DNA of 26,204 nt from a virus, in the IMG/VR virus record IMGVR_UViG_3300024518_002072, positions 1 to 26,204 of that record; one strand, given 5' to 3'. How positions within the stretch are numbered: position 1 is the first letter of the stretch; every line of letters begins with the position of its first letter. The notes below the pieces were generated by a model. It had not been told where the DNA came from. It made no database searches and saw only the letters and a program-made list of their open reading frames with translations. Of the stretch, positions 1 to 16,533 are shown in pieces. The position numbers were made by a program, and so were the translations under genes.

Positions 1-118
1 TGGGGATACCCAAGTCTGGGAATGGCGGAAGTGGGATCTTGGGAAGATCGGGGATCGGAGGGATAGGTAGCCCCGGAAGCCCCGGAAGCTTAAAGGCAGG
101 AATCGAACAGGCGCTCAT
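1..118 (-). CDS. Proline-rich baseplate-region protein, N-terminal part (cut by window edge)
   Basis: The reading frame starts at an ATG whose last base overlaps the TGA of the spike gene (ATGA junction) and runs off the left edge after 39 codons. The visible part starts MSACSIPAFKLPGLPG and is then almost entirely Pro, Leu, Ile and Gly in a short periodic pattern (LPGLP, IPPIP, LPKIP, LPPFP). Proline at every second to third residue implies an extended polyproline-like stretch, with no globular fold visible. It follows the spike gene directly in a baseplate operon, so it is probably a tail-tip or baseplate component. The rest of the protein lies outside the window, and no family is assigned. 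Confidence 0.6.
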   Translation of the reverse strand, partial: MSACSIPAFKLPGLPGLPIPPIPDLPKIPLPPFPDLGIP

Positions 119-828
119 GGCTTAATCGTCCAGCTAATGGATGCGACGCCAGCTTGCCCCAATGGCCCGTACAGAACGGCGTTCGCTCCAGGTAGCGGAG
201 GTGTAGCTGGAGCAATGTTGCCCAAGTTTCCGCCGCCCGTGTTGCACATGAAGTTGTCCCCGTTAATAGAGACTCCCTTTTCGTTAATGATCAACTGCGT
301 TTTACCGGCCATCAAAATGATCTCATCCTTGGTTACTTGAACAAGCGATGTCCCAAGGCTTAGGTTGATGCTGGACTCTCCGTTGTTGTCGCCAAGGAGA
401 GAGATCCCCATGTCCGTTAATACCGCTCCTGACGAATCCTTTTCTTCTTCAAGATCCGCGGCTTTTGTCACCATGGAGATCGAGTTTGACGAGTCCTTAA
501 CGAGCAGTCTCGTCGGCCCCTTGGTCACTATGGCGCGGTCGCCAGGCTGAAGGTTTCCCGCGTTAGAAACTGAGCGATTGTCCCACGTTCCGAAAACGAA
601 CGTCTCGTTTCCAAAGCTATAAGAAAAAGCCTGAGGAGCACCAAACTCGTCAGCCTCCGCAGGAACTGAATAAAACCCGTCAGTGGTCGCTACAGACTGG
701 CAATCAAAAGCGAAGCCCTCTGTCTCCCCCTCGTCATATCTAACATCGCCAAGGCTAACTGTGATCCTGCCGTCCTCGACAGAGGATACCAAGAGATCGG
801 AATAGTTCCAGTTGTCCTCGAATGCCAT
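115..828 (-). CDS. Baseplate spike protein, Mu Gp45-like
   Basis: This 237-aa protein is probably the central spike below the tail tube, which punctures the host envelope on sheath contraction. The N-terminal half (about residues 15-115) is beta-rich and contains LQPGDRAIV, as expected of an OB-fold that binds the hub. The C-terminal half (about 150-200) has short alternating strands such as DEIILMAGKTQLIINEKG followed by GVSINGD, a pattern typical of the trimeric beta-helix of phage spikes. The length matches Mu Gp45-type proteins. The ATG is preceded by GGAG at 6 nt. It follows the propeller gene and precedes the proline-rich ORF with a 4-nt overlap. Family and position agree, but the fold is inferred. 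Confidence 0.7.
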   Translation of the reverse strand: MAFEDNWNYSDLLVSSVEDGRITVSLGDVRYDEGETEGFAFDCQSVATTDGFYSVPAEADEFGAPQAFSYSFGNETFVFGTWDNRSVSNAGNLQPGDRAIVTKGPTRLLVKDSSNSISMVTKAADLEEEKDSSGAVLTDMGISLLGDNNGESSINLSLGTSLVQVTKDEIILMAGKTQLIINEKGVSINGDNFMCNTGGGNLGNIAPATPPLPGANAVLYGPLGQAGVASISWTIKP

Positions 829-830
829 GG

Positions 831-2210
831 TTACTCCGTGTTGGCCACCATTGTGCGGAGCAGATCAGCCCACTGAATGACTTTGTCAGAAAGCCGCTGA
901 ACATATAAGTGGCAGTTCTTAAAAGTTGTGGCCACAAGCTCTGGCGTCATGACATCTGACGGGGCACTCGCGGAATTAATTTGCAGGGTGATCGACCCAC
1001 TAAAACTAAGTTGACCCATGTTAACTCTAGGTGAATCAACTGCCAGAATGACACCCGGAGCAAGTGGCTCCTGAGACACCCACGTGACGCCACCGTCTGC
1101 CGTGTAGATAACAACACTCGAATCAGTTTCCGTGCTGTATCCACATGCCCACCCCTCGTTTGCACTGACAAATCGAACGCCCGTCAGGTGAGCATCTACC
1201 CCGCTGGTAAGCTCTGTCCACACTGCCCCACCGTCTATGGTCTTAATAATGTATCCAGATTCACCGACGATGTAGGCGATGTCGTTCGTCACAACGGAAA
1301 CGCCACTAAGGTAATACGATGAACCTATCGCCTGAGGCGTGTAACTAGCCCCGGCATCAGTCGTCTTGAACACCCCTCCCTGTCCACCGACTGACCACCC
1401 TACCCCCGTATTTAGAATATCAACATCAATAAGGGATGCCCCGAAAGCAGTTGGGATCGTAACATTTATCCAGGTTGCCCCATTGTTTATCGTGTAAAGA
1501 GTCTCCCCCCCTGCGCCGCAAACAATTCCCCTACCATCAGCAAGAAAGCTCACGGAGTAAAGGGTGAAGGTATGGGGAGCCGTCACGCTAGGCGTCCAGA
1601 GCGCCCCACCGTTCGTTGTGCGAAGGACAGTGTTCCCCTCGCCAACAGCCCACCCGGACAGTTCGTCCTGAAAGTCCACCCCTGTTAGCCCCACTGTGAC
1701 GCCGCTTGCCTGTGTTTGCCACGACCTGCCACTTGTCGAACTGTGGACAATGGAGCCAGCGCCGCCGACGGCCCATCTGTGGGAAGTGGATGGCGAGGAC
1801 ACGTCCGAAAACGATACAGCTGGTGATGTTGGATTTAACATGGGCTCCCATGTGTTTCCCGCATTCACGCTCTCAAGAAGCTTGAAGCCAACAGAAGAGA
1901 CGAACCTCAAGTTAGCCGGAACTGCCGTGAGTGGCTTCTTGGTCGTGTCATATGTTCTTGAAGATGAATACCATTGGTAATCAGGTGTGAACGGCGGCGA
2001 ATCTGGCAGGAAATTATTGCAACTCACGTTAAGCGGAACATGGTTGCGAGGCGGCTTCGGGATATTTACAAGCGTACTCCCGGCATCACCGAAGCCCGAG
2101 CCAGGCTCCCTGACCTTTATTACTGGCCATCGGGGGAGCCCGTCGACGTCAAGATCGGCCAAAGACAGCGAGAAGTTTGCGCGAAACTGAGAGTAGGTCG
2201 GGATAATCAT
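831..2210 (-). CDS. Baseplate-operon protein with a Ycf48/BNR-type seven-repeat beta-propeller
   Basis: This is a 459-aa protein. Residues 1-100 are a non-repetitive N-terminal region. From about 105 to 380 a 40-45-residue unit recurs seven times, each with an Asp-box-like signature ending in W or Y: VNAGNTW, TSGRSW, TTNGGALW, INNGATW, TTDAGASY, TIDGGAVW and TADGGVTW. Most units carry a preceding GWAVG-type strand (RWAVGG, GWAVGE, GWSVGG, GWACGY). This is the hallmark of Ycf48-like/BNR propellers, and seven repeats would close a seven-bladed ring. The C-terminal 75 residues are not repetitive. The ATG overlaps the hub stop codon by 4 nt and the spike gene follows directly, so it is co-translated with baseplate genes. 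Receptor binding or hub-spike assembly is an inference. It has no signal peptide. Confidence 0.75.
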   Translation of the reverse strand: MIIPTYSQFRANFSLSLADLDVDGLPRWPVIKVREPGSGFGDAGSTLVNIPKPPRNHVPLNVSCNNFLPDSPPFTPDYQWYSSSRTYDTTKKPLTAVPANLRFVSSVGFKLLESVNAGNTWEPMLNPTSPAVSFSDVSSPSTSHRWAVGGAGSIVHSSTSGRSWQTQASGVTVGLTGVDFQDELSGWAVGEGNTVLRTTNGGALWTPSVTAPHTFTLYSVSFLADGRGIVCGAGGETLYTINNGATWINVTIPTAFGASLIDVDILNTGVGWSVGGQGGVFKTTDAGASYTPQAIGSSYYLSGVSVVTNDIAYIVGESGYIIKTIDGGAVWTELTSGVDAHLTGVRFVSANEGWACGYSTETDSSVVIYTADGGVTWVSQEPLAPGVILAVDSPRVNMGQLSFSGSITLQINSASAPSDVMTPELVATTFKNCHLYVQRLSDKVIQWADLLRTMVANTE

Positions 2211-3685
2211 CTTGGAACAGCCCCCAGGATGAGGGAATCGAGTGGCAATAGAACTAAGCTCGTAATTTGACCAGATGCCCTGGTGGCGGAGAACTGCCTA
2301 GAAAAGATCCACATATCTTCGTCAATATCCAACTTTTTAATGATGACCCGAACAACGGTATTCGGGGTCCACATTGCCCCGGAGGCTGCAACGAACCCCG
2401 CCACCGAACAAGCGATCTTAAAACCGCCCGGAGCCCGAAGTCCCAACATCAGCTCCGCAAAGGTCTGACACCTTTCTGCATCGCGAGACATCTTATCTTC
2501 AGAAAACTTGGGCTTATATGGTTGAAAATCAGACTTGTAGTGAAACCTCTGCCTTTCAATAGTCTTATAGGCCACTGATTTGTAAGGGAATACCATCCTC
2601 TTGCGACCAGCCGGAATCTTAAACCAGCGCTCAGTATTTTCATAATCGTTCGTATAGACATCAATAGCGCCCTCTATACGAACCCCCGCAACTGGCTTGT
2701 TAGCCCTAACGGCCCCCGGCTTGTCGGGAGCTGGACCGTATATGATGCTCCCGAATCCTGGTCCTTGAACGAGGTTTTGCCCAACCGGCACCATTTCCGG
2801 ATCTTTCTGATTGACGGCCCCTGGTGCCTTTTTGCTCAGCTTCTTCATCAAGGCTTGACCGCCAACGACAATCTCACTGAACTGCCCGTCGTTGGTGTCG
2901 CTTACGTTTATTCCGTCAAGCATCAAGTCGCCCAACACGAGGTCGTCACCAGCGGCAGAGGCGTATGACCCGTCAAAAAGAGTGTAACTCGCGTCCTGCT
3001 CATATATCGGACGATCGAGCATCAGGCCGCCAAAGGCGTCTGTCTTCAAGATAAAACCCAAGCGGGAGATTATTCTAGATACAAACCCATAAGCCTTCTC
3101 GCCCTTCTGGGCCTTTAGTTGTTTCGCCTTCAGCTTAGTAACCGGCACGGGCGCCGGAAGATTTCCGAGAGGAGAATTTACCGTTTGGCCACTCTTGACC
3201 ATAAGGTCCGATCCGGTGTTGTTCTTCAGGTCAAGGTTCCTGTTAGAGAAGAACGGCGACAACACCGTCATAATAAGCTGGGAAACAGGAACATCTGTTT
3301 TGGAACTAATTGAAAACTGAGAACTGACGCTGGCTTCATAGGCTGCCGTTAGAAGTCCTTTTATCTCCAGCATTATCGCGGTACCGTTTCGCGCCATGCT
3401 GAAGGTTTGCGTTGTTATGACGCCGGTTGCCTGGAGATTGTCTCCGATAAGAAACTGAACAGCATTGCCCTTCGAGAGCTTCTTTCTGTAGCTCTCGAAC
3501 TTATCGTTAGTAGGGAATACCGTAACGGACAGCCTTCCAATGGGATCTAGAAAGTTTTCGTTTAGTGTGAAGTTTGTCCACAGTTCGAGAACTTCTCCAG
3601 CCTCATAGTAACCTTCGCCGCTTTCGTAGCTTTTGGCCCTCTCCGGGTCTAAAAACACAAGCTTAAGAGATGAGCCTTGCTCCAC
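2207..3685 (-). CDS. Baseplate hub protein, Mu Gp44 / gpD-like
   Basis: This 492-aa protein is probably the hub that links the end of the tail tube to the spike. The support is its length, its position after a DNA-circularization-type protein and before a Gp45-like spike, and a beta-rich architecture. It opens with a beta-domain (about 1-120; LELWTNFTLNENF, GRLSVTVFP, GNAVQFLIGD), continues with a segment resembling the Gp44 middle domains (VSRIISRLGFILKTDAFGG near 205-225), and ends with VRVIIKKLDIDEDMWI and SLVLLPLDSL. A long polar, basic loop lies around 280-410. The start codon is GTG, preceded by a G-rich stretch, three bases after the previous gene's TAG. Its stop overlaps the propeller start by 4 nt. 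The hub assignment is fairly secure, the exact family less so. Confidence 0.65.
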   Translation of the reverse strand: MEQGSSLKLVFLDPERAKSYESGEGYYEAGEVLELWTNFTLNENFLDPIGRLSVTVFPTNDKFESYRKKLSKGNAVQFLIGDNLQATGVITTQTFSMARNGTAIMLEIKGLLTAAYEASVSSQFSISSKTDVPVSQLIMTVLSPFFSNRNLDLKNNTGSDLMVKSGQTVNSPLGNLPAPVPVTKLKAKQLKAQKGEKAYGFVSRIISRLGFILKTDAFGGLMLDRPIYEQDASYTLFDGSYASAAGDDLVLGDLMLDGINVSDTNDGQFSEIVVGGQALMKKLSKKAPGAVNQKDPEMVPVGQNLVQGPGFGSIIYGPAPDKPGAVRANKPVAGVRIEGAIDVYTNDYENTERWFKIPAGRKRMVFPYKSVAYKTIERQRFHYKSDFQPYKPKFSEDKMSRDAERCQTFAELMLGLRAPGGFKIACSVAGFVAASGAMWTPNTVVRVIIKKLDIDEDMWIFSRQFSATRASGQITSLVLLPLDSLILGAVPR

Positions 3686-3687
3686 GG

Positions 3688-4647
3688 CTACACCCCCAGG
3701 TTGTCGCTTGCCGAGTCTATCTCTGCATTAAACTTTTTATCGGAGTAGTAAAGAACATAAACTGGTTTCAGGAGAGTGCTTCGGGGGATCGTGGGACTAT
3801 TAAGGATCCCTGGATTGAGCCCAATAAGCTCGCCCACAGTATTCCCCGTTTCAGCGGAAATCCGGTCCAGGTTCGTTTTAAAGGTTATGTGCTTTCTGGC
3901 AATCGCCCTAGTGTTTATACCGTTCCTCTCGGCCAGTAGCTTTATGCCGTTCCACAGAGTGATCAGGTTTCCCGCAAGCGCCCACGTGGCGTTGCTGCCA
4001 ACCGATTCCGCTGTTTCAATGATTGCTTCAACCGCGCCAAGAGATTGGTTCAGATATCCTTCCACAGTGTTTCTTGAAGAAGATACGAGCCCATCTATCT
4101 TCTTCACCATGTCCAGAAGGCTCGTCTCTGGCATTCCCGGTGGAAGCGGTAGCCCAAGGTCGCTGTAATCCTGATCTGCCGCTTCAGCCGCAGCTGTCAG
4201 GGAGGCGTCCGCTCTTGCAAATGGGAAATTGATGTCTTCTGCCGGGTCGGCCAAGGTTTCAATAAACGAAACCTGTAGGATCGCGCCAGATGTTCTCGCT
4301 GCGCTCAAGTCAACGCTCCAGGTTTTTACATAAGCCAATGTAAAACCAAAGACAGGATGCTGTAACTTCCCCGGAGAATCGTCAACTGCCACGGCGTTAA
4401 GCCACTTGTTGAACAACTCAGGAAAGTAATTTTTGCCTAAGTTGTTTAGAAAGTGGAGCCGGAAATTCATTGGGCTAGGATCGCGCCCCACATTCTCATG
4501 CGCCGCCCCGTTGATGTACGGGTACCTTCGCTCAGCTAAAGAAAACGATCCTGAGAACGATGCCGAGTCGTAAGGCGGCGACTCCAGGCCGCGCCATGTC
4601 ATCTTGGGCAGCGTCCCAATTATTGATGTTGTTGAGTTTAACGGCAT
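3688..4647 (-). CDS. DNA-circularization-N-domain protein, Mu gpN-like baseplate/tail component
   Basis: This 319-aa protein follows the tape measure. Its N-terminal 90 residues carry the pattern of the DNA circularization N-terminal family (WRGLESPPYDSASFSGS, then LAERRYPYINGAAHENVGRD, then MNFRLHFL). In Mu the homologue is a baseplate protein despite the historic name. The C-terminal half is helical, and near the end NTVGELIGLNPG followed by LLKPVYVLYYS suggests a LysM-like element. The frame is open to 4884, but that extension lies inside the tape-measure gene and is low-complexity, so the ATG at 4647, eight bases after the tape-measure stop, is preferred. The ribosome site there is weak, so translation is probably coupled. 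Confidence 0.7.
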   Translation of the reverse strand: MPLNSTTSIIGTLPKMTWRGLESPPYDSASFSGSFSLAERRYPYINGAAHENVGRDPSPMNFRLHFLNNLGKNYFPELFNKWLNAVAVDDSPGKLQHPVFGFTLAYVKTWSVDLSAARTSGAILQVSFIETLADPAEDINFPFARADASLTAAAEAADQDYSDLGLPLPPGMPETSLLDMVKKIDGLVSSSRNTVEGYLNQSLGAVEAIIETAESVGSNATWALAGNLITLWNGIKLLAERNGINTRAIARKHITFKTNLDRISAETGNTVGELIGLNPGILNSPTIPRSTLLKPVYVLYYSDKKFNAEIDSASDNLGV

Positions 4648-4654
4648 GGCGTCA

Positions 4655-7102
4655 CTATGGCTTGTAGTTGTCTCCCCAGTTAGCACCAATGCCAGATAGC
4701 CCAGGAGTGCCAGGGGAGCCCTGTGGGTGAGCAGTCGGAAAGGGGACACCGCTAACGTTGAGGACACCGGTGAACACGGCATTGGTAGTTTTGATTGTTG
4801 CCACTGGAGCACTGACGGCGATCTCGTTGCCCTCTTTATCAATCTGGGTTTCTCCCCCTCCCACCTTGTGCCCCTCGCCGGCAATCTTGCCGCCGGCTCT
4901 GGCTATATCGCGCCCCTCTAAATAGTTAGCTATCAACATCCTGAATTGCTGCTGCCTACCAACGTCGCCCTTAAAGTCGGGGTTCGTTCTGGCGGCCCCC
5001 TCGGCAAGTTGTGATGTAACATTAGTCCTTCTGGCAATGTCGTCACCAAACCCCTTGTGCCTCCCCCCCGTGCCGTAAAGGAGGCTTTTCTCAGATGCCA
5101 TCTCCTCAAGCTCTCTTGCTTTTGCTTCAGGCACACCCATTTTTACCATTTGCCTGACCAGGGATTCTTTGCTCCTGCCGCGCTTATTGAAAAAGAGTCT
5201 GGCGTTTCCTTCCTTATCTTTTTGTACAGTGGTAAGGCCCGCAATGGCTCCGAGGGACATCCCGTACTCGGCATCCATTTGCTTTTGCTCAAGACTGGCA
5301 ACCTCCTTATCAAAGCCTGCCATTGTTCCTTTATACTCAGATATATCCGCTTGCGACTTTGGAATAACAGACGCGTCCCACTTCTTTTTATAGGCCGCGC
5401 GCCTGTCTTTCGTTAATTGCAACTTCTCTTTAATGTTGCCGGCGGCGAAAGCGTCGTCTGCCTCTTTGCCCCTCTTCGCATCCATGGCTTTGTTAAGAAA
5501 TCCAAATTGGTCAGCAACAAATCCTACCAGCGACGCAAGCGACGCCATCGCAATAGTCATGCCCTTGATCGCCACCACAAGTCCGTCTACAGCGTCTTTG
5601 TTTCCAGCCAGGCCCTTTAGGGTTGGAAGCAGCTCTTTAGAAACTTCGGCGGTAACTTTTTCCCAGGCTGCCGTTAGTTGAGCGCTTGTCGTCTCTTGTT
5701 TGATTGCATGGTCCTCCATGATTTCAGTAACAGCCTCGCTACCGACCTTTAAGGATTGGATAAACTCGTCGAATGCCTTCTTCGTCTCAATGGCGGTTCT
5801 CTTTACGCCACCCTGATCTTCTCCAGCCGCAAGCTGATCCCATTTCCTTGAGAAGCCGCTAGTATACCGAATGCCGCGCTGCTTGAAGATGTCCATAAGA
5901 GCAACCTTACGGTCCTTCTTCTTTATCTTATTACCCTGAGCATCTGTAGCGTCGCCAGTCAGCCGGTTGTCTGTTCTATAAAGAATGTCGGACAGGATGT
6001 CCTCCATGTCTCTAAACTTAGATCGACTTCCCTTTCTGAATGCGTTTACGCCAAGCTTTGACAGCTTCCCCGTGTGCTGAGCCTGGGCGACATTGGCGTA
6101 AGCTCGCTCCATTGACGTGGCGGCTCCTGCTGCTGTGCCAGATCCCTGCGCTCCAATCTGAATCATGCTGGACAGTGACTTGACGGCGTCGAATCCAGTC
6201 CTGCCGCTAAACCTCGTCATGGCAGACGCCATCTTGGGAAGGTACTTCGCCAAGTCGGACAGCTCGATTCTGTTTCTCTTACCTGCCACTGCCATCATGG
6301 ACAGCCCGGTCATCATCTCTTTAGGATCTTTGATCCCCATCTTAATCTGCATCTCAGCCATGACTCGGCCAAGATCTTCCATGTCTGTACCAGTAGCGCT
6401 GCCCACCGTGGCAAACGTGTTCATATACTTTTTGGCACCTGGCAAGTCGCCCGTCTTGCTCACGAACGCCATCATGCCCTTAGTAAGATCTAACGACTTT
6501 ACTCCTGGGTTAGCCATTGATGTAGCCTGAATGCGGCGCATGAGACTGCCAACATTTGCCCTTTGGCCAGGCTTTCGCCCCTTAATTGCTAGGCTCGCCA
6601 CAGCCTCCTCAAGCTCGACCGCTTGCCGCCCTGCTGCGCCAACTGCCATCGCTCCAAAAAGGGCACCAGTTGCCCCTACGCCTATCATGCCCGTTCCCCC
6701 GCTAAAGCTCCTCAGTCTCCCCATCTGAGCAGCGGCTCTTCGGTTTGATGCTGCCAATGCCTTGTTTGCCGCTGCCTCTTTAGCCTTTTGTGCAGCCGCA
6801 GCCTTTGATGCAGCGACTGCATCTGCGCCACGCTTCTTTTCGGCCTTAGAAAGATTCTTTAGTTCCCTGGCTAACTTCTTTAGTCCCTTTAGCTCTTTAG
6901 TCAGACCGGAGATGGCTGATGCCGACGCTTCTTTGGCAGCTAGCTTACGTTGCTTGGAAGTGCTCTTCGCGACTCTCGACATCTTCTTGTCGAGCTTTTG
7001 GACAGTTCTCGCAGTGTGCGCAGCGGCTGTTTCTATATCCTTAAATGCGCGTATGACAGACTCTTTGCCGGTCGCGGAAAAGGTATAAACAATTGCTGCC
7101 AT
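4655..7102 (-). CDS. Tail tape measure protein
   Basis: This 815-aa protein sets tail length, acts as a scaffold for tube assembly and is expelled into the host. The evidence is its size as the longest gene in the tail section, its place between the tail-assembly genes and the baseplate, and its composition. Residues 30-125 are Lys/Ala-rich coiled coil. A Gly/Ala hydrophobic segment lies at about 136-158 (GVGATGALFGAMAVGAAG). The middle (160-470) resembles TP901-type tape measures, with helical stretches such as LSDLAKYLPKMASAM. A second hydrophobic segment (GMTIAMASLASLVGFVAD) is near 520-540. The end is unusual: the last 25 residues are Pro/Gly-rich (QGSPGTPGLSGIGANWGD). The ATG lies three bases after the stop of the upstream gene. 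Confidence 0.9.
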   Translation of the reverse strand: MAAIVYTFSATGKESVIRAFKDIETAAAHTARTVQKLDKKMSRVAKSTSKQRKLAAKEASASAISGLTKELKGLKKLARELKNLSKAEKKRGADAVAASKAAAAQKAKEAAANKALAASNRRAAAQMGRLRSFSGGTGMIGVGATGALFGAMAVGAAGRQAVELEEAVASLAIKGRKPGQRANVGSLMRRIQATSMANPGVKSLDLTKGMMAFVSKTGDLPGAKKYMNTFATVGSATGTDMEDLGRVMAEMQIKMGIKDPKEMMTGLSMMAVAGKRNRIELSDLAKYLPKMASAMTRFSGRTGFDAVKSLSSMIQIGAQGSGTAAGAATSMERAYANVAQAQHTGKLSKLGVNAFRKGSRSKFRDMEDILSDILYRTDNRLTGDATDAQGNKIKKKDRKVALMDIFKQRGIRYTSGFSRKWDQLAAGEDQGGVKRTAIETKKAFDEFIQSLKVGSEAVTEIMEDHAIKQETTSAQLTAAWEKVTAEVSKELLPTLKGLAGNKDAVDGLVVAIKGMTIAMASLASLVGFVADQFGFLNKAMDAKRGKEADDAFAAGNIKEKLQLTKDRRAAYKKKWDASVIPKSQADISEYKGTMAGFDKEVASLEQKQMDAEYGMSLGAIAGLTTVQKDKEGNARLFFNKRGRSKESLVRQMVKMGVPEAKARELEEMASEKSLLYGTGGRHKGFGDDIARRTNVTSQLAEGAARTNPDFKGDVGRQQQFRMLIANYLEGRDIARAGGKIAGEGHKVGGGETQIDKEGNEIAVSAPVATIKTTNAVFTGVLNVSGVPFPTAHPQGSPGTPGLSGIGANWGDNYKP

Positions 7103-7411: not shown

Positions 7412-8132
7412 CGCTGATCGCCTCTTCGCCCTCCTCGTCAATTTCCTCAGATCCCCGATCTTGATCTTCATTGAATACTGGAGCATCGTCTTCACCTTCA
7501 ACTTTCAGAGATAGGTATTCGTCGAACTTGTCTTCTCCGAGGGTGTCCACAATACCGAAGAACTTGCCGCTCAATATGATAAACGCTTGAGTAATCCACT
7601 CTGGCGACTTTTCTGCCAGAAAATGATCTGGAAAATTTGTATGCGAGGACCGCGCCGCAGCCCTGGCGTACATCATGATGTCTGGAACCTTTATGCTCCA
7701 CGACGTTGGCGCGTGACGCCTGCGCACCTCGTGATAAAGGTTTAGCAGCGTAGCGATCTGATCAGTCGTAAGGTTCTCTCTCATCCATTTGGGTCCAGGA
7801 AAAGCTGCGTACTTATTCCTTGAGCCCTCTTCAGCGTCCTCGTTAACCTCTTTGCATGCCCGGAAAAGCGCCTCGATGGCTTTGCTGTCATTTAGCAAAT
7901 CCATGTCCTGAGCAGCCTCCTCGATACCCTCGCTCACAGCCTTCACGTACTTGTGGGCCGACACCACCGAGTAATCTTCCTCGGACTTGGTGTTTACCCG
8001 AATCCCCACCTTAGAGACGTCCTTGTCTCCTAAACTAAAAAAGCCCTGGACATCGAACTCGTGAATGTCTCGTTCACGCTGCTCGATTGCCAGGGCTAAT
8101 TTACTCTTTGGAATCTGCTTCGATTTGCTCAT
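7401..8132 (-). CDS. Putative tail assembly protein (upstream of tape measure)
   Basis: This 243-aa soluble protein has no recognisable catalytic motif. It is helical and strongly acidic at the C-terminus: the last 40 residues are mostly Glu and Asp (EDDAPVF, GSEEIDEEGEEA). Position is the main clue: contractile phages usually encode tail-assembly chaperones between the tube and tape-measure genes. Residues 115-215 (LTTDQIATLLNLYHEVRRRHAPTSW, FFGIVDTLGEDKFDEYLSL) look like an alpha-helical domain. The ATG lies within the end of the previous gene (32-nt overlap, different frame). No slippery heptamer is visible at the overlap, so ordinary coupled translation is more likely than programmed frameshifting. 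The function is inferred from gene order only. Confidence 0.55.
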   Translation of the reverse strand: MSKSKQIPKSKLALAIEQRERDIHEFDVQGFFSLGDKDVSKVGIRVNTKSEEDYSVVSAHKYVKAVSEGIEEAAQDMDLLNDSKAIEALFRACKEVNEDAEEGSRNKYAAFPGPKWMRENLTTDQIATLLNLYHEVRRRHAPTSWSIKVPDIMMYARAAARSSHTNFPDHFLAEKSPEWITQAFIILSGKFFGIVDTLGEDKFDEYLSLKVEGEDDAPVFNEDQDRGSEEIDEEGEEAISDDV

Positions 8133-8664
8133 TGACTAACTTATTTGCAGCCGAAAACGCCATTCGCTGACCGTCCGTCAGCTCTGCCATGGGTAGTCCG
8201 TAGTAGCGCTCCGGTCTTTGGTTTCTAATCAGACCTGCCCCGGTTGCCACATCACAGCACTCACTCATCGCAACTACAATAGAAAAATTTGAAGGCGCCT
8301 TTGCACCCTTAGAAAGAACGTTCTTCCAGAGCTGGGCGTCCTGGGATGCTAGCGATGGGCAAATTGCTCCGAAAGCCCTGCTGAACGCGCTCATGAGGAG
8401 CCTGCACTCCATTGTTTCAAGAAGCCCAACCTCTTTCCCGGAGTTGAACGCCAGCTCGCCATCGCAAAAAATTGACCTTGCGGCAACCTCGTGCTCTCCG
8501 CCCTCATCAATTGCTCGGTGAACCTCTTCGGAGGTTAGGGCATGAGCCCACAGCTCGAATCTGCTCAAAAGATATATGCGATGCTCGATCTTAATTTTAG
8601 GCCGAGGTCGCCTGATAAGCATCCGAAACAACGCAGCGGGCTCTATGTCTTTAGGGGGCTTCAC
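8101..8664 (-). CDS. Putative tail assembly protein (follows tail tube)
   Basis: This 187-aa protein of unknown family lies directly after the second tail-tube gene and overlaps the next gene by 32 nt. It starts at a GTG, three bases after the upstream TAG, with AGGA just before the start. An internal ATG at residue 14 is an alternative. The N-terminus is basic (LIRRPRPKIKIEHRIYLLSRFE) and the rest is mixed helical with four cysteines, including a CC pair in MSECCDVATG. The gene pair 8101-8664 / 7401-8132 occupies the slot where tail-assembly chaperone pairs usually occur. The function is inferred from that position, as no conserved motif was recognised. Confidence 0.5.
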   Translation of the reverse strand: MKPPKDIEPAALFRMLIRRPRPKIKIEHRIYLLSRFELWAHALTSEEVHRAIDEGGEHEVAARSIFCDGELAFNSGKEVGLLETMECRLLMSAFSRAFGAICPSLASQDAQLWKNVLSKGAKAPSNFSIVVAMSECCDVATGAGLIRNQRPERYYGLPMAELTDGQRMAFSAANKLVNEQIEADSKE

Positions 8665-13313: not shown

Positions 13314-13546
13314 GGCCAACCTGGCGGCGCGTCGTCTTGCCATGCTGGCGTTTGCATCAGCGCTACCGCCTCTGCGTGAGTAAGCGACGGAAGGCCAGAG
13401 AAGGCGGGCGGAGTTGCTCCGGACCACTTCAGGACGCACTGACTTTCGTCTAGACTGGTCCTCACCGTCGCCTCTTCTTCGATAGCTTGCTCGTATTGCT
13501 CTGGCGTGGCGGGATAGTCGACAACGCAATAATTCAAATCGCTCAT
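13310..13546 (-). CDS. Small acidic hypothetical protein
   Basis: This 78-aa protein is linked on both sides by ATGA overlaps: its ATG overlaps the stop of the LamG-array gene and its TGA overlaps the next start. The sequence (MSDLNYCVVDYPATPEQYEQ ... LPSLTHAEAVALMQTPAWQD) was not matched to a family. It is acidic in the first half, and LTHAEAVALMQTPAW looks like a short helix followed by a Trp-containing turn. Small proteins after phage fibre or adhesin genes are often chaperones for them, and that is one possible role; the evidence is adjacency only. Confidence 0.5.
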   Translation of the reverse strand: MSDLNYCVVDYPATPEQYEQAIEEEATVRTSLDESQCVLKWSGATPPAFSGLPSLTHAEAVALMQTPAWQDDAPPGWP

Positions 13547-16533
13547 GGTATATCCGTCTCTATGTCGCCATCCGACATATTACTGCAAAACAATACCCTA
13601 GTAAGATCGGGTCCTGCAACAGACATCGTTCCCGGAGTGGCGCCCGTGTCACTCGTAGCGTCACCCATTCTCCACCAGGCGTTAATATCTCCCCATGTGG
13701 CTGCAAGCTGGCTCAGGTCGGGCGGGCTCCCACCCCCGTATAGAGCCGTCACCTCGCCAGAGGTTAGCGCTCGGTCATAAAGCGCCACGTTGCACACGTT
13801 GCCCAAATAGTCGAGCGTCGATGGGGCTCCGCGGCGACCGATACGCATGGGCTCTGCGGTTAGGATCGTGTTACTGCCGAGGGTGTTGCTGAGCGTGGTC
13901 ATAGCGACGGGGGCGCCGTCAACATAGACCGTCACGTTCGAAACGTCCCCCGGCGTCGACGCTGTATACACGACCGCCACGTGGTACCACGTACCTGTGT
14001 TGTACGTCGTACCGAGAGAATATAAGTCGAGATAGTTACCGGCTGTGTGCGTCATCTCAAAGCGCAACTCACCGGTAGCGTGTAGGAACAGGTTCCACCC
14101 GCGAAACGGGGTGGAGCCTTCGCCTTTTCCGATCAGAATCCCGTATGTTGCAGTCGAAGACTTAAACCAAGCTGAGGCAGTAAAGGGCGTGTTGTATTCG
14201 TAAGTTGGCCCGGCATTCACTTCGCAGTAATCGTCAACACCGTCCATCGCGGTGCTAGTTCGCACCGCGTAGTCTGTTGCGTTGTTCGTATTGGTCTGAC
14301 CCGCGACCATATTGTGAACAGTCAGATTGTTTGAGCCTACCACGTCGTACTGGGTGCCGCCCGCTGCCGTGCTGTCGCCAGCATCGTCCCCGCATCGGTA
14401 CCAACTCACAAGCCCGCTCAGCGCCGACAGGTCACTAGCCTTGCCCATCGCTGACGCTTGCCGGTCGTAGATTGCGGAGATTTCAACGGGCGTGAGCACC
14501 CTGTCAAATATCGCCACTTCATCAAGAGTGCCGTCAAAATGCGTAGCCCCTTTTACCGTAAGCGGACCTCCAATTATCAGCGGGGCGCTACTCGTCGTTG
14601 GACTCTGCACTGAAGTCGCGAAGTTTATGTAAGTGGCGGCTTCTACGCCGGCGACATACATCTTCAGCCCCGCTACAGTTTCAGAACCGTCGTATGTGTA
14701 AACGATGTTCTTCATCGAGCCTGTCGTGGTGAACGGATCTGCTACCCCGCGCTCAAGTTGCCAGCCTGCCCCCAGATCGTGAATTAACAACGCAACAGGA
14801 GCGCCATTGTAGAGCCCTACCGCCCACCCCGCGTTAGTTCCGCCAGAGGCAACCTTGGCGACGATGAACATGTACGCTGAGCTTTCAGTCGCGCACCAGA
14901 GACTAACCGACCACGGGTCGGTGGAATCAAAATCGATGCCGGCTGGAGACGCTGCGCCTTCGAGCCTATCGTCTAGACCATCGAATAGGATGGCGTTGTT
15001 GTTGGTATACGGAACAGGGGCACAATTAGGGACGTCTTCAGCCAAATCGGCCCAGTCCATGTTTGTCTGAAATCCGTGGGATGTGCCTACGATGTCCCAT
15101 ACGCTGGCCTGCCCAAGCGCAATACCATCAAAAGTCGCGTCCCCGCAACGCCACCAATGAAGAAGATCGGCGCTTGCGCTGTGCTGGGTGAGATCTACAG
15201 GGTCACAGCCGTTATACATCTCTACACATTCCGCTGCCGTTAGCGCGCGACTGTAAAAACTGGGCTCATCGAACCGACCGTTATACAGGCTAATCGCCGT
15301 TGGGCCGAACGTCTCGCGCCCCGCAATATAGACTCGGCTGCCAGGGTTCCCTACGCGATCCGGAACTGCTGTGGTTTGCCGATCTGCTCCACCGTCAATG
15401 TCTATCGTCAGGGTTGTGCCGTCCCAACTCATCACCGCAAGGTGCCAGTCCCCATCGTTGAACAAGCCAACAGATGACGCGAAAGCAGGGCCGGCAGTCG
15501 CGCCCATGTAGCCTAGGATCTGCCCGCCACTTAGAAAGATGACCCAGTCGCGGGCGAGGGCCCCACCCCACTTGCTGAAGATGTCAGCCGTTCCCCCTTG
15601 GGTGGTCTTAAACCAGATTGCAGCAGAGAAGTGCTGATCAACCCCACTGAAGCTCGCGTCGTTGCCGAGGTTTACAAACTCGTCAATTCCGTCTGCTGAT
15701 AGGCTAAGTAAATTCCAAAATGCTTCGCCCGGAGACTCTGTGACAATATCTCCAGCAGCCGTGTTAATAGAGAGCAAATCGTTACCGTTGGGGCTCTGGT
15801 CGAATATCTCGCCACCCGGTGCCGCGCTGTCTCCGGTGCCGTCGCCCATTCGCCACCAGCCGTCGAGATTGGCAAACCCCGTGATGTCGAGCGGCTTGCC
15901 GGCAATGCCGGAGCCCTGGTTGTATAGCGTCGCGATTTCTGCCGGCGAAAGGGACGCGCTCCAGATCGACAAGTCGGCAATAGAGCCCGGAAAGAAGTTG
16001 CCTCCAGGGTAGCGACCGATGTCTAGGTCGCCCGCTCCGAGCGTTGTATTTCCGCCCAGCGTGTCTCTGTAAGTCAGGCCACTTGGAACAGGCATCGTGC
16101 TCGTACCATTTATGTACGTCGTACAGCCGGAGGCTAAGCCTGACCCGTTGTACTCCCAGGTGATCATCTTCCAAGCACCCGTGAGTGTCGTTTGCGTCAC
16201 CGCTTCTTGGATATAGAGATTGCCGCCGAGATTGTTGCACAAGAAGAACAGCGGTTGGCCGAGAAAAAAACCTACGGCCCAACCCATAATGCTGCCAGCC
16301 GCTTGCTTGCTCGCGAGATAGATGCCAGCTGTCGATGTGCCGCGTACCCAAGCGTTAACAGTGAAAGCTGAGTTCCAGTCGAACTCGCAGCCCGTCACCG
16401 TGCCAGCGGCTCTCGTGAGGCGCTCGCTGACGCCATCTAGGACGATGGACTTCGTATCTGTAAAGGCCGGTGGGGCCGGGGCTCCGCCTGCGGACTGTCG
16501 TCCCAAGCCTAGTACGATGCCAATTCCCCTCAT
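13543..16533 (-). CDS. Large virion-associated protein with four LamG/concanavalin A-like domains
   Basis: This 996-aa protein is the longest gene in the window. After a short Gly-rich start (MRGIGIVLGLG) it has four similar domains at about residues 28-207, 276-440, 514-690 and 760-932. Each begins with a [VLM]DG[VIL]-[SD] strand, has a W-[FV]-[KR] or W-C strand, an [YI]-x-[DN]G[GTA] strand near the middle and an F-[DN]G-x-x-[DA]-x-x-[IF]-[FYW]-[DS]-R-x-L end, as in LamG/laminin-type jelly rolls that bind carbohydrate or protein. After each domain comes a linker with WWRMGD, WWRCGD, WYRCGD and WWRMGD near 226, 460, 711 and 953. It sits among head and neck genes, so it may be a capsid-surface or neck adhesin. 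No signal peptide or catalytic residues are seen. Confidence 0.8.
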   Translation of the reverse strand: MRGIGIVLGLGRQSAGGAPAPPAFTDTKSIVLDGVSERLTRAAGTVTGCEFDWNSAFTVNAWVRGTSTAGIYLASKQAAGSIMGWAVGFFLGQPLFFLCNNLGGNLYIQEAVTQTTLTGAWKMITWEYNGSGLASGCTTYINGTSTMPVPSGLTYRDTLGGNTTLGAGDLDIGRYPGGNFFPGSIADLSIWSASLSPAEIATLYNQGSGIAGKPLDITGFANLDGWWRMGDGTGDSAAPGGEIFDQSPNGNDLLSINTAAGDIVTESPGEAFWNLLSLSADGIDEFVNLGNDASFSGVDQHFSAAIWFKTTQGGTADIFSKWGGALARDWVIFLSGGQILGYMGATAGPAFASSVGLFNDGDWHLAVMSWDGTTLTIDIDGGADRQTTAVPDRVGNPGSRVYIAGRETFGPTAISLYNGRFDEPSFYSRALTAAECVEMYNGCDPVDLTQHSASADLLHWWRCGDATFDGIALGQASVWDIVGTSHGFQTNMDWADLAEDVPNCAPVPYTNNNAILFDGLDDRLEGAASPAGIDFDSTDPWSVSLWCATESSAYMFIVAKVASGGTNAGWAVGLYNGAPVALLIHDLGAGWQLERGVADPFTTTGSMKNIVYTYDGSETVAGLKMYVAGVEAATYINFATSVQSPTTSSAPLIIGGPLTVKGATHFDGTLDEVAIFDRVLTPVEISAIYDRQASAMGKASDLSALSGLVSWYRCGDDAGDSTAAGGTQYDVVGSNNLTVHNMVAGQTNTNNATDYAVRTSTAMDGVDDYCEVNAGPTYEYNTPFTASAWFKSSTATYGILIGKGEGSTPFRGWNLFLHATGELRFEMTHTAGNYLDLYSLGTTYNTGTWYHVAVVYTASTPGDVSNVTVYVDGAPVAMTTLSNTLGSNTILTAEPMRIGRRGAPSTLDYLGNVCNVALYDRALTSGEVTALYGGGSPPDLSQLAATWGDINAWWRMGDATSDTGATPGTMSVAGPDLTRVLFCSNMSDGDIETDIP

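Follow-up and report, generated by a model that had tools for sequence, protein, structure and literature searches.

A predicted seven-bladed propeller within a split domain encoded between the baseplate hub and spike genes of a Mu-type phage

Introduction

In a virus from the IMG/VR collection (IMGVR_UViG_3300024518_002072), a gene for a repeat protein lies between the genes for the baseplate hub and spike, which raises the question of what a β-propeller might do at this place in a phage tail. We analysed a stretch of 26,204 nucleotides, positions 1 to 26,204 of that record, which is called the window throughout. An earlier note had described the product of the gene as a Ycf48/BNR-type propeller of seven repeats and had suggested that it may be a receptor-binding propeller presented around the spike or an assembly platform for the hub–spike complex, with its non-repetitive ends serving as attachment modules.

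Results

On the minus strand of the window, the genes run from the head genes, which we take to be such from their order and sequence, through those for sheath, tube, tape measure, and a DNA-circularisation-type protein to the hub, the propeller gene, the spike, and a proline-rich repeat protein. The hub (2207..3685, minus strand), which is of the Mu gp44/GpP type, matches the Pfam families GpP_4th and NMB1110-like_C and PHROG 177 (baseplate hub). Its profile finds Mu gp44 in the PDB (1wru; E 6.7e-10), together with two more Mu-type hubs, and matches SuMu gp44 in hhalign. The gp45/Vgr-like spike (115..828, minus strand) was assigned by its position, by the match of its profile to the Vgr spike fragment 3wit in the PDB (E 1.6e-4), and by hhalign to the gene following the hub in MW202476 (probability 96%); hhalign of the spike profile against SuMu gp45 gave no significance. 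Because the hub matches Mu gp44-type hubs and the spike matches Vgr, we take the operon to encode a contractile, Mu-type baseplate, as the earlier note had supposed. The translational coupling that it described is likewise present: the hub stop and the start of the propeller gene share 4 bases as ATGA, and 2 bases lie between the propeller stop (833-831) and the spike start (828).

Directly behind the spike gene, the window holds the start of the proline-rich repeat protein (1..118, minus strand), which is truncated by the window end. Full copies were recognized by sequence at L002:9499-9828, L005:18833-19174, L025:9437-9892, and L011:12386-12700. The protein, of about 105-110 residues, has conserved ends, with a Cys near the start and CPLD at the end, and lies where one might expect a PAAR-type spike tip. 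Among the head–tail connector genes, the window (13543-16533, minus strand) also encodes a protein of 996 residues that contains four LamG/ConA-like domains (PF13385; E 3e-65); in the relative L005/L008, a gene for a similar LamG-like protein (L008:19489-21123) lies in the tail-fibre region instead.

The propeller gene (831..2210, minus strand) is an open reading frame with an ATG start that encodes 459 residues. Its product matches Pfam PSII_BNR with an E value of 8.6e-23, and its sequence relatives in the PDB are HCF136/Ycf48 chains. Seven Asp-box-like motifs are found at residues 116, 159, 200, 242, 285, 326, and 372 (1080..1865, minus strand), with spacings of 43, 41, 42, 43, 41, and 46 residues, which agrees with the seven-repeat, BNR-type propeller claimed earlier. 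The strict pattern [ST]-x-[DN]-x-G-x-x-[WFY] is matched by six of the motifs and only loosely by the seventh; shuffled sequences contained 0.1 matches on average, and none of 3000 shuffles reached six. Self-similarity of the protein peaks at offsets of 126 (three blades), 41, and 43 residues, the peaks at 126 and 41 exceeding those of all 500 shuffles.

A closed ring, on which the earlier note had made its proposal depend, is predicted by AlphaFold2 for residues 102-393 (1032..1907, minus strand), with pLDDT values mostly of 75-89. Six blades are complete in themselves, and one is made of three strands from the N-terminal side and one from the C-terminal side. With VIA-align, the model can be superimposed on the seven-bladed designed propeller WRAP-T (7bid) with a Z score of 32.6 and an rmsd of 2.2 for 279 residues. 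The Asp-box motifs sit in the c–d loops of the model, so that the repeated motif occupies the turn joining the third to the fourth strand of each blade, as is characteristic of BNR/Asp-box repeat proteins. As modelled, the region is a seven-bladed β-propeller, with seven four-stranded blades in a closed ring. In the full-length model, which was computed from an alignment of three sequences, the two ends of the protein have pLDDT values of about 25-30; because they are folded without confidence there, the placement of the propeller relative to these ends rests on the alignment described below.

The name Ycf48 stands as a description of fold and repeats and fails as a family assignment. Against the NCBIfam model for Ycf48, NF010237, the protein scores 84.5 bits, compared with an equivalog cut-off of 326, and reading of the N-terminus (MIIPTYSQFRANFS...), which belongs to the first half of the carrier domain introduced below, revealed no signal peptide or lipobox. 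On these two grounds, the score and an N-terminus that does not read like that of a lipoprotein or lumen-targeted protein, membership of the Ycf48 family was rejected.

Asp-box propellers include glycosidases, and the propeller could accordingly be an enzyme, for instance one that cleaves a host surface polymer during penetration; a weak NCBIfam match to the F510_1955 family glycosylhydrolase (33 bits versus a cut-off of 175) points the same way. Yet every catalytic model remains below its cut-off, and the model has seven blades, whereas sialidases have six. The sialidase RIP motif (R-[IVL]-P) is absent, for which reason sialidase identity was rejected, and the arginines in the propeller are few, with seven scattered over residues 96-395. 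An enzymatic role appears improbable.

Intact homologues of the gene occupy the equivalent place in three more contigs, L002 (95% identical), L005 (57%), and L025 (34% in the propeller region), each with the order hub, propeller, spike, and the start of the propeller gene overlaps the hub stop in the window, L005, and L025. Since these are separate contigs, the arrangement is real, and an assembly artefact is ruled out; conservation of the gene order in relatives, for which the earlier note had asked, is thus established.

Hub and baseplate-J alignments, run against viral contigs, yielded more distant phages. Four contigs that the hub search placed with the L012 group (L013, L014, L016, and L017) were left out of individual reading. 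The hubs of the distant relatives are 34-38% identical to that of the window, and in six of these phages (L011, L012, L015, L031, L032, and L041) the gene in the gap between hub and spike encodes 152-161 residues, without a propeller. A profile of this propeller-free protein, which we call X, matches the window protein with an E value of 7.8e-22 in two places and in the correct order: profile positions 2-87 fall on residues 1-92 (i-E 2.6e-10) and positions 104-157 on residues 401-455 (i-E 4e-10). When all open reading frames of at least 40 residues in the window, L002, L005, and L025 were searched with the profile, the four propeller genes alone were found (E 1.7e-25 to 9.6e-22), the next-best frame having an E value of 0.06. 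In an alignment of 14 X proteins, a single column opens where the propeller sits.

Because propeller-free X matches both ends of the window protein separately and the alignment opens once, the ends can be read as two halves of one domain, an N-terminal half of residues 1-95 (1926..2210, minus strand) and a C-terminal half of residues 396-459 (834..1025, minus strand), and the propeller as an insertion. We regard it as very probable that the architecture is indeed that of a propeller inserted into a split X domain. With both halves matching propeller-free X beside a Mu-type hub and spike, the window protein is, judged by its sequence, a member of the X family. The ends are common to phages with and without the propeller and are, for this reason, probably the attachment part, as had been proposed; they form one split domain, however, and not two modules.

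X was seen in 16 contigs examined, between hub and spike in 13 of them and adjoining a tail-fibre gene in 3, and it carries the propeller in 4 of the 16. The AlphaFold2 model of the L011 copy, based on 14 sequences (pLDDT 81.5, pTM 0.78), is a compact β-rich domain with an N-terminal helix, in which the insertion point of the propeller corresponds to the turn of a predicted β-hairpin formed by strands 84-90 and 93-101. X cores were compared with Pfam, PHROGs, and NCBIfam without a match exceeding a cut-off, and the model had no match at E 0.001 among viral and PDB structures; its best structural matches, at Z scores of about 5, are Ig-/cadherin-type sandwiches, below the trusted level. X would seem to be a so far undescribed family, a baseplate accessory protein of some Mu-type phages.

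Other forms and places of X were also encountered. In L039, L043, and L045, the protein comprises 243-263 residues (L039:7464-8195, L043:340-1101, and L045:7477-8268) and contains a different insertion, of ~85 residues, behind the first helix; the L039 protein matches the PHROG 1236 head protein (E 5e-5). In L038, L046, and L047, X lies immediately upstream of the tail-fibre gene, away from the hub–spike gap. Upstream of the relocated X, a TnpB-like frame (L047:13993-15153) and an HNH-like frame (L046:12975-13649) were noted by eye. Neither X nor the propeller is present in the Mu-like phages SuMu and MW202476, where the spike directly follows the hub. Because these two phages lack X and the other three place it elsewhere, X appears to be accessory, with a changeable place in the operon.

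This distribution bears on the proposal that the propeller is an assembly platform, that is, a structural collar joining the hub and spike or the wedges, for example by replacing contacts of other proteins. Propellers frequently serve as protein–protein platforms, and the conserved position between hub and spike, the overlapping start codons, and the purifying selection on the gene would all suit such a function. The proposal is weakened, however, because relatives encode hub, X, and spike without the propeller, and SuMu and MW202476 lack both X and propeller; the propeller is, besides, the least conserved portion of the protein. We consider a platform unlikely, and less likely than a role in display.

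Between the window and L002, dN/dS is 0.13 for the propeller, 0 for the N-terminal half of X, and 0.04 for the C-terminal half, values that indicate purifying selection on the propeller gene. The N-terminal half of the window protein is 100, 63, and 54% identical to those of L002, L005, and L025, respectively. For L025, identity is 34% in the propeller, 50% in the C-terminal half, 44% in the hub, and 42% in the spike. These comparisons indicate that the propeller is maintained, yet more variable than the X that carries it. Within the propeller, the loops between successive blades and the a–b loops show the lowest conservation (0.20-0.29 identity by pair) and the Asp-box turns are among the best-conserved classes (0.51-0.56), a pattern that, with three independent sequences, is suggestive of a variable propeller face.

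A neutral passenger, tolerated by X and without a role of its own, might also be confined to one clade and diverge faster than its flanks, as the propeller does. Against this, an open propeller with seven boxes is retained at a hub identity of 58%, and at least five boxes are retained at 44%, and the dN/dS of 0.13 likewise speaks against a passenger; we regard such an explanation as very improbable. DNA divergence between the window and L002 is uneven throughout the tail region and not in the propeller alone. Patches of low identity (61-81% versus about 95% around them) were observed at window positions 4615-5214, in the last part of the tape-measure gene, and at 8365-8514, within the gene at 8101-8664. 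With the whole tail region uneven, no conclusion on an exchange of the propeller was drawn from this divergence.

In a tree of 17 hub sequences, the backbone of which is poorly supported, the four propeller phages cluster together (support 97/92) with one state change. Since they form a single hub clade, one gain accounts for the distribution of the propeller, and the simplest reading of its origin is a single insertion into an older, propeller-free X; a loss of the propeller in the other X phages is a possible alternative. Every relative that carries X is an environmental contig. When the propeller protein, the hub, the spike, and one X protein were used as queries against the proteins of GenBank phages, matches were either lacking or very distant, and the baseplate-J protein had no match among plasmids. 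The only match in the genome collection, L006 (Bacteroidota, 21%), is to a distant propeller only.

Discussion

Our results point to the following explanation. X would be a baseplate accessory protein, a single domain predicted to be β-rich and about 155 residues long, whose gene lies between those for hub and spike and into which a seven-bladed Asp-box propeller is inserted at the turn of a β-hairpin. Because X is common to all these phages, the split domain would be the part that retains the protein in the baseplate, and the propeller, both ends of which lie together, would project outward from it. The propeller may bind the host, since relatives manage without it, since it is the variable part, and since receptor binding is known or presumed for propellers of other phage baseplates (phi11 Gp45 and phiKZ gp131; PMC4901313). 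It would then serve this clade as a display module that binds the host surface, perhaps by its glycans.

The single gain of the propeller in one hub clade counts in favour of this insertion and display, as does the position of X just ahead of the tail-fibre gene in three phages. Receptor binding is the leading reading for the propeller; for the display function itself, the chances seem about even, and the explanation as a whole, from accessory protein to display module, is one that we favour slightly. On the other side, the faster divergence of the propeller would also fit a relaxed constraint, the uneven divergence from L002 extends over the whole tail region, and the proximity to the hub gene could point to a position at the centre of the tail, where a receptor binder would be less accessible. 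A broader and rather doubtful idea is that X is an exchangeable 'socket' between hub and spike, which would take up whole domains in its loops and present host-surface binders beside the spike and not on the tail fibres; the propeller in the hairpin turn in one clade and, in other phages, the segment of ~85 residues close to the N-terminus would be examples of such domains.

The related phages provide a natural comparison, with the same type of small protein and the same neighbours, and with the propeller inserted or not. The role of the propeller is therefore directly testable by removal of the insert alone. The finding also draws attention to a baseplate protein family that has no name yet and whose phages are missing from the GenBank phage collection that we searched.

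Among known proteins, Ycf48/HCF136 (PSII_BNR) gives the top sequence match in Pfam, NCBIfam, and the PDB and likewise has a seven-bladed Asp-box-type propeller, but that of the window is embedded in a phage baseplate protein. Among the papers covered by our literature searches, none described a Ycf48-type phage baseplate protein; a search of viral structure predictions returned many BNR-type tail proteins. With the Mu baseplate operon (gp44 hub, gp45 spike; PMC11915804), the window shares the type of hub and spike and the general gene order, but SuMu has no gene between the two, and the list of baseplate components given with the Mu structure, gp43-gp50, includes no additional X-like protein (PMC11915804).

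The published baseplate propellers that we met in the literature belong to long proteins at the periphery, in which they form the end or a middle part. In phiKZ, gp131 (4GBF) places a seven-bladed propeller at the edge of a contractile-phage baseplate (PMC4901313); compared by description, this propeller makes up the C-terminal domain of a protein at the periphery, whereas that of the window interrupts a small protein whose gene lies between those for hub and spike. Gp45, the receptor-binding protein of phi11, is a baseplate protein bearing a propeller that presumably holds the sugar of the receptor, and receptor binding is the job assumed for both proteins; unlike the window protein, Gp45 has five blades and a trimeric stem and tower, and six trimers surround the baseplate of a siphophage (PMC4901313). 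Propellers in phage tails are thus already known, and the new elements here are the X family and, between hub and spike, the architecture of an inserted propeller.
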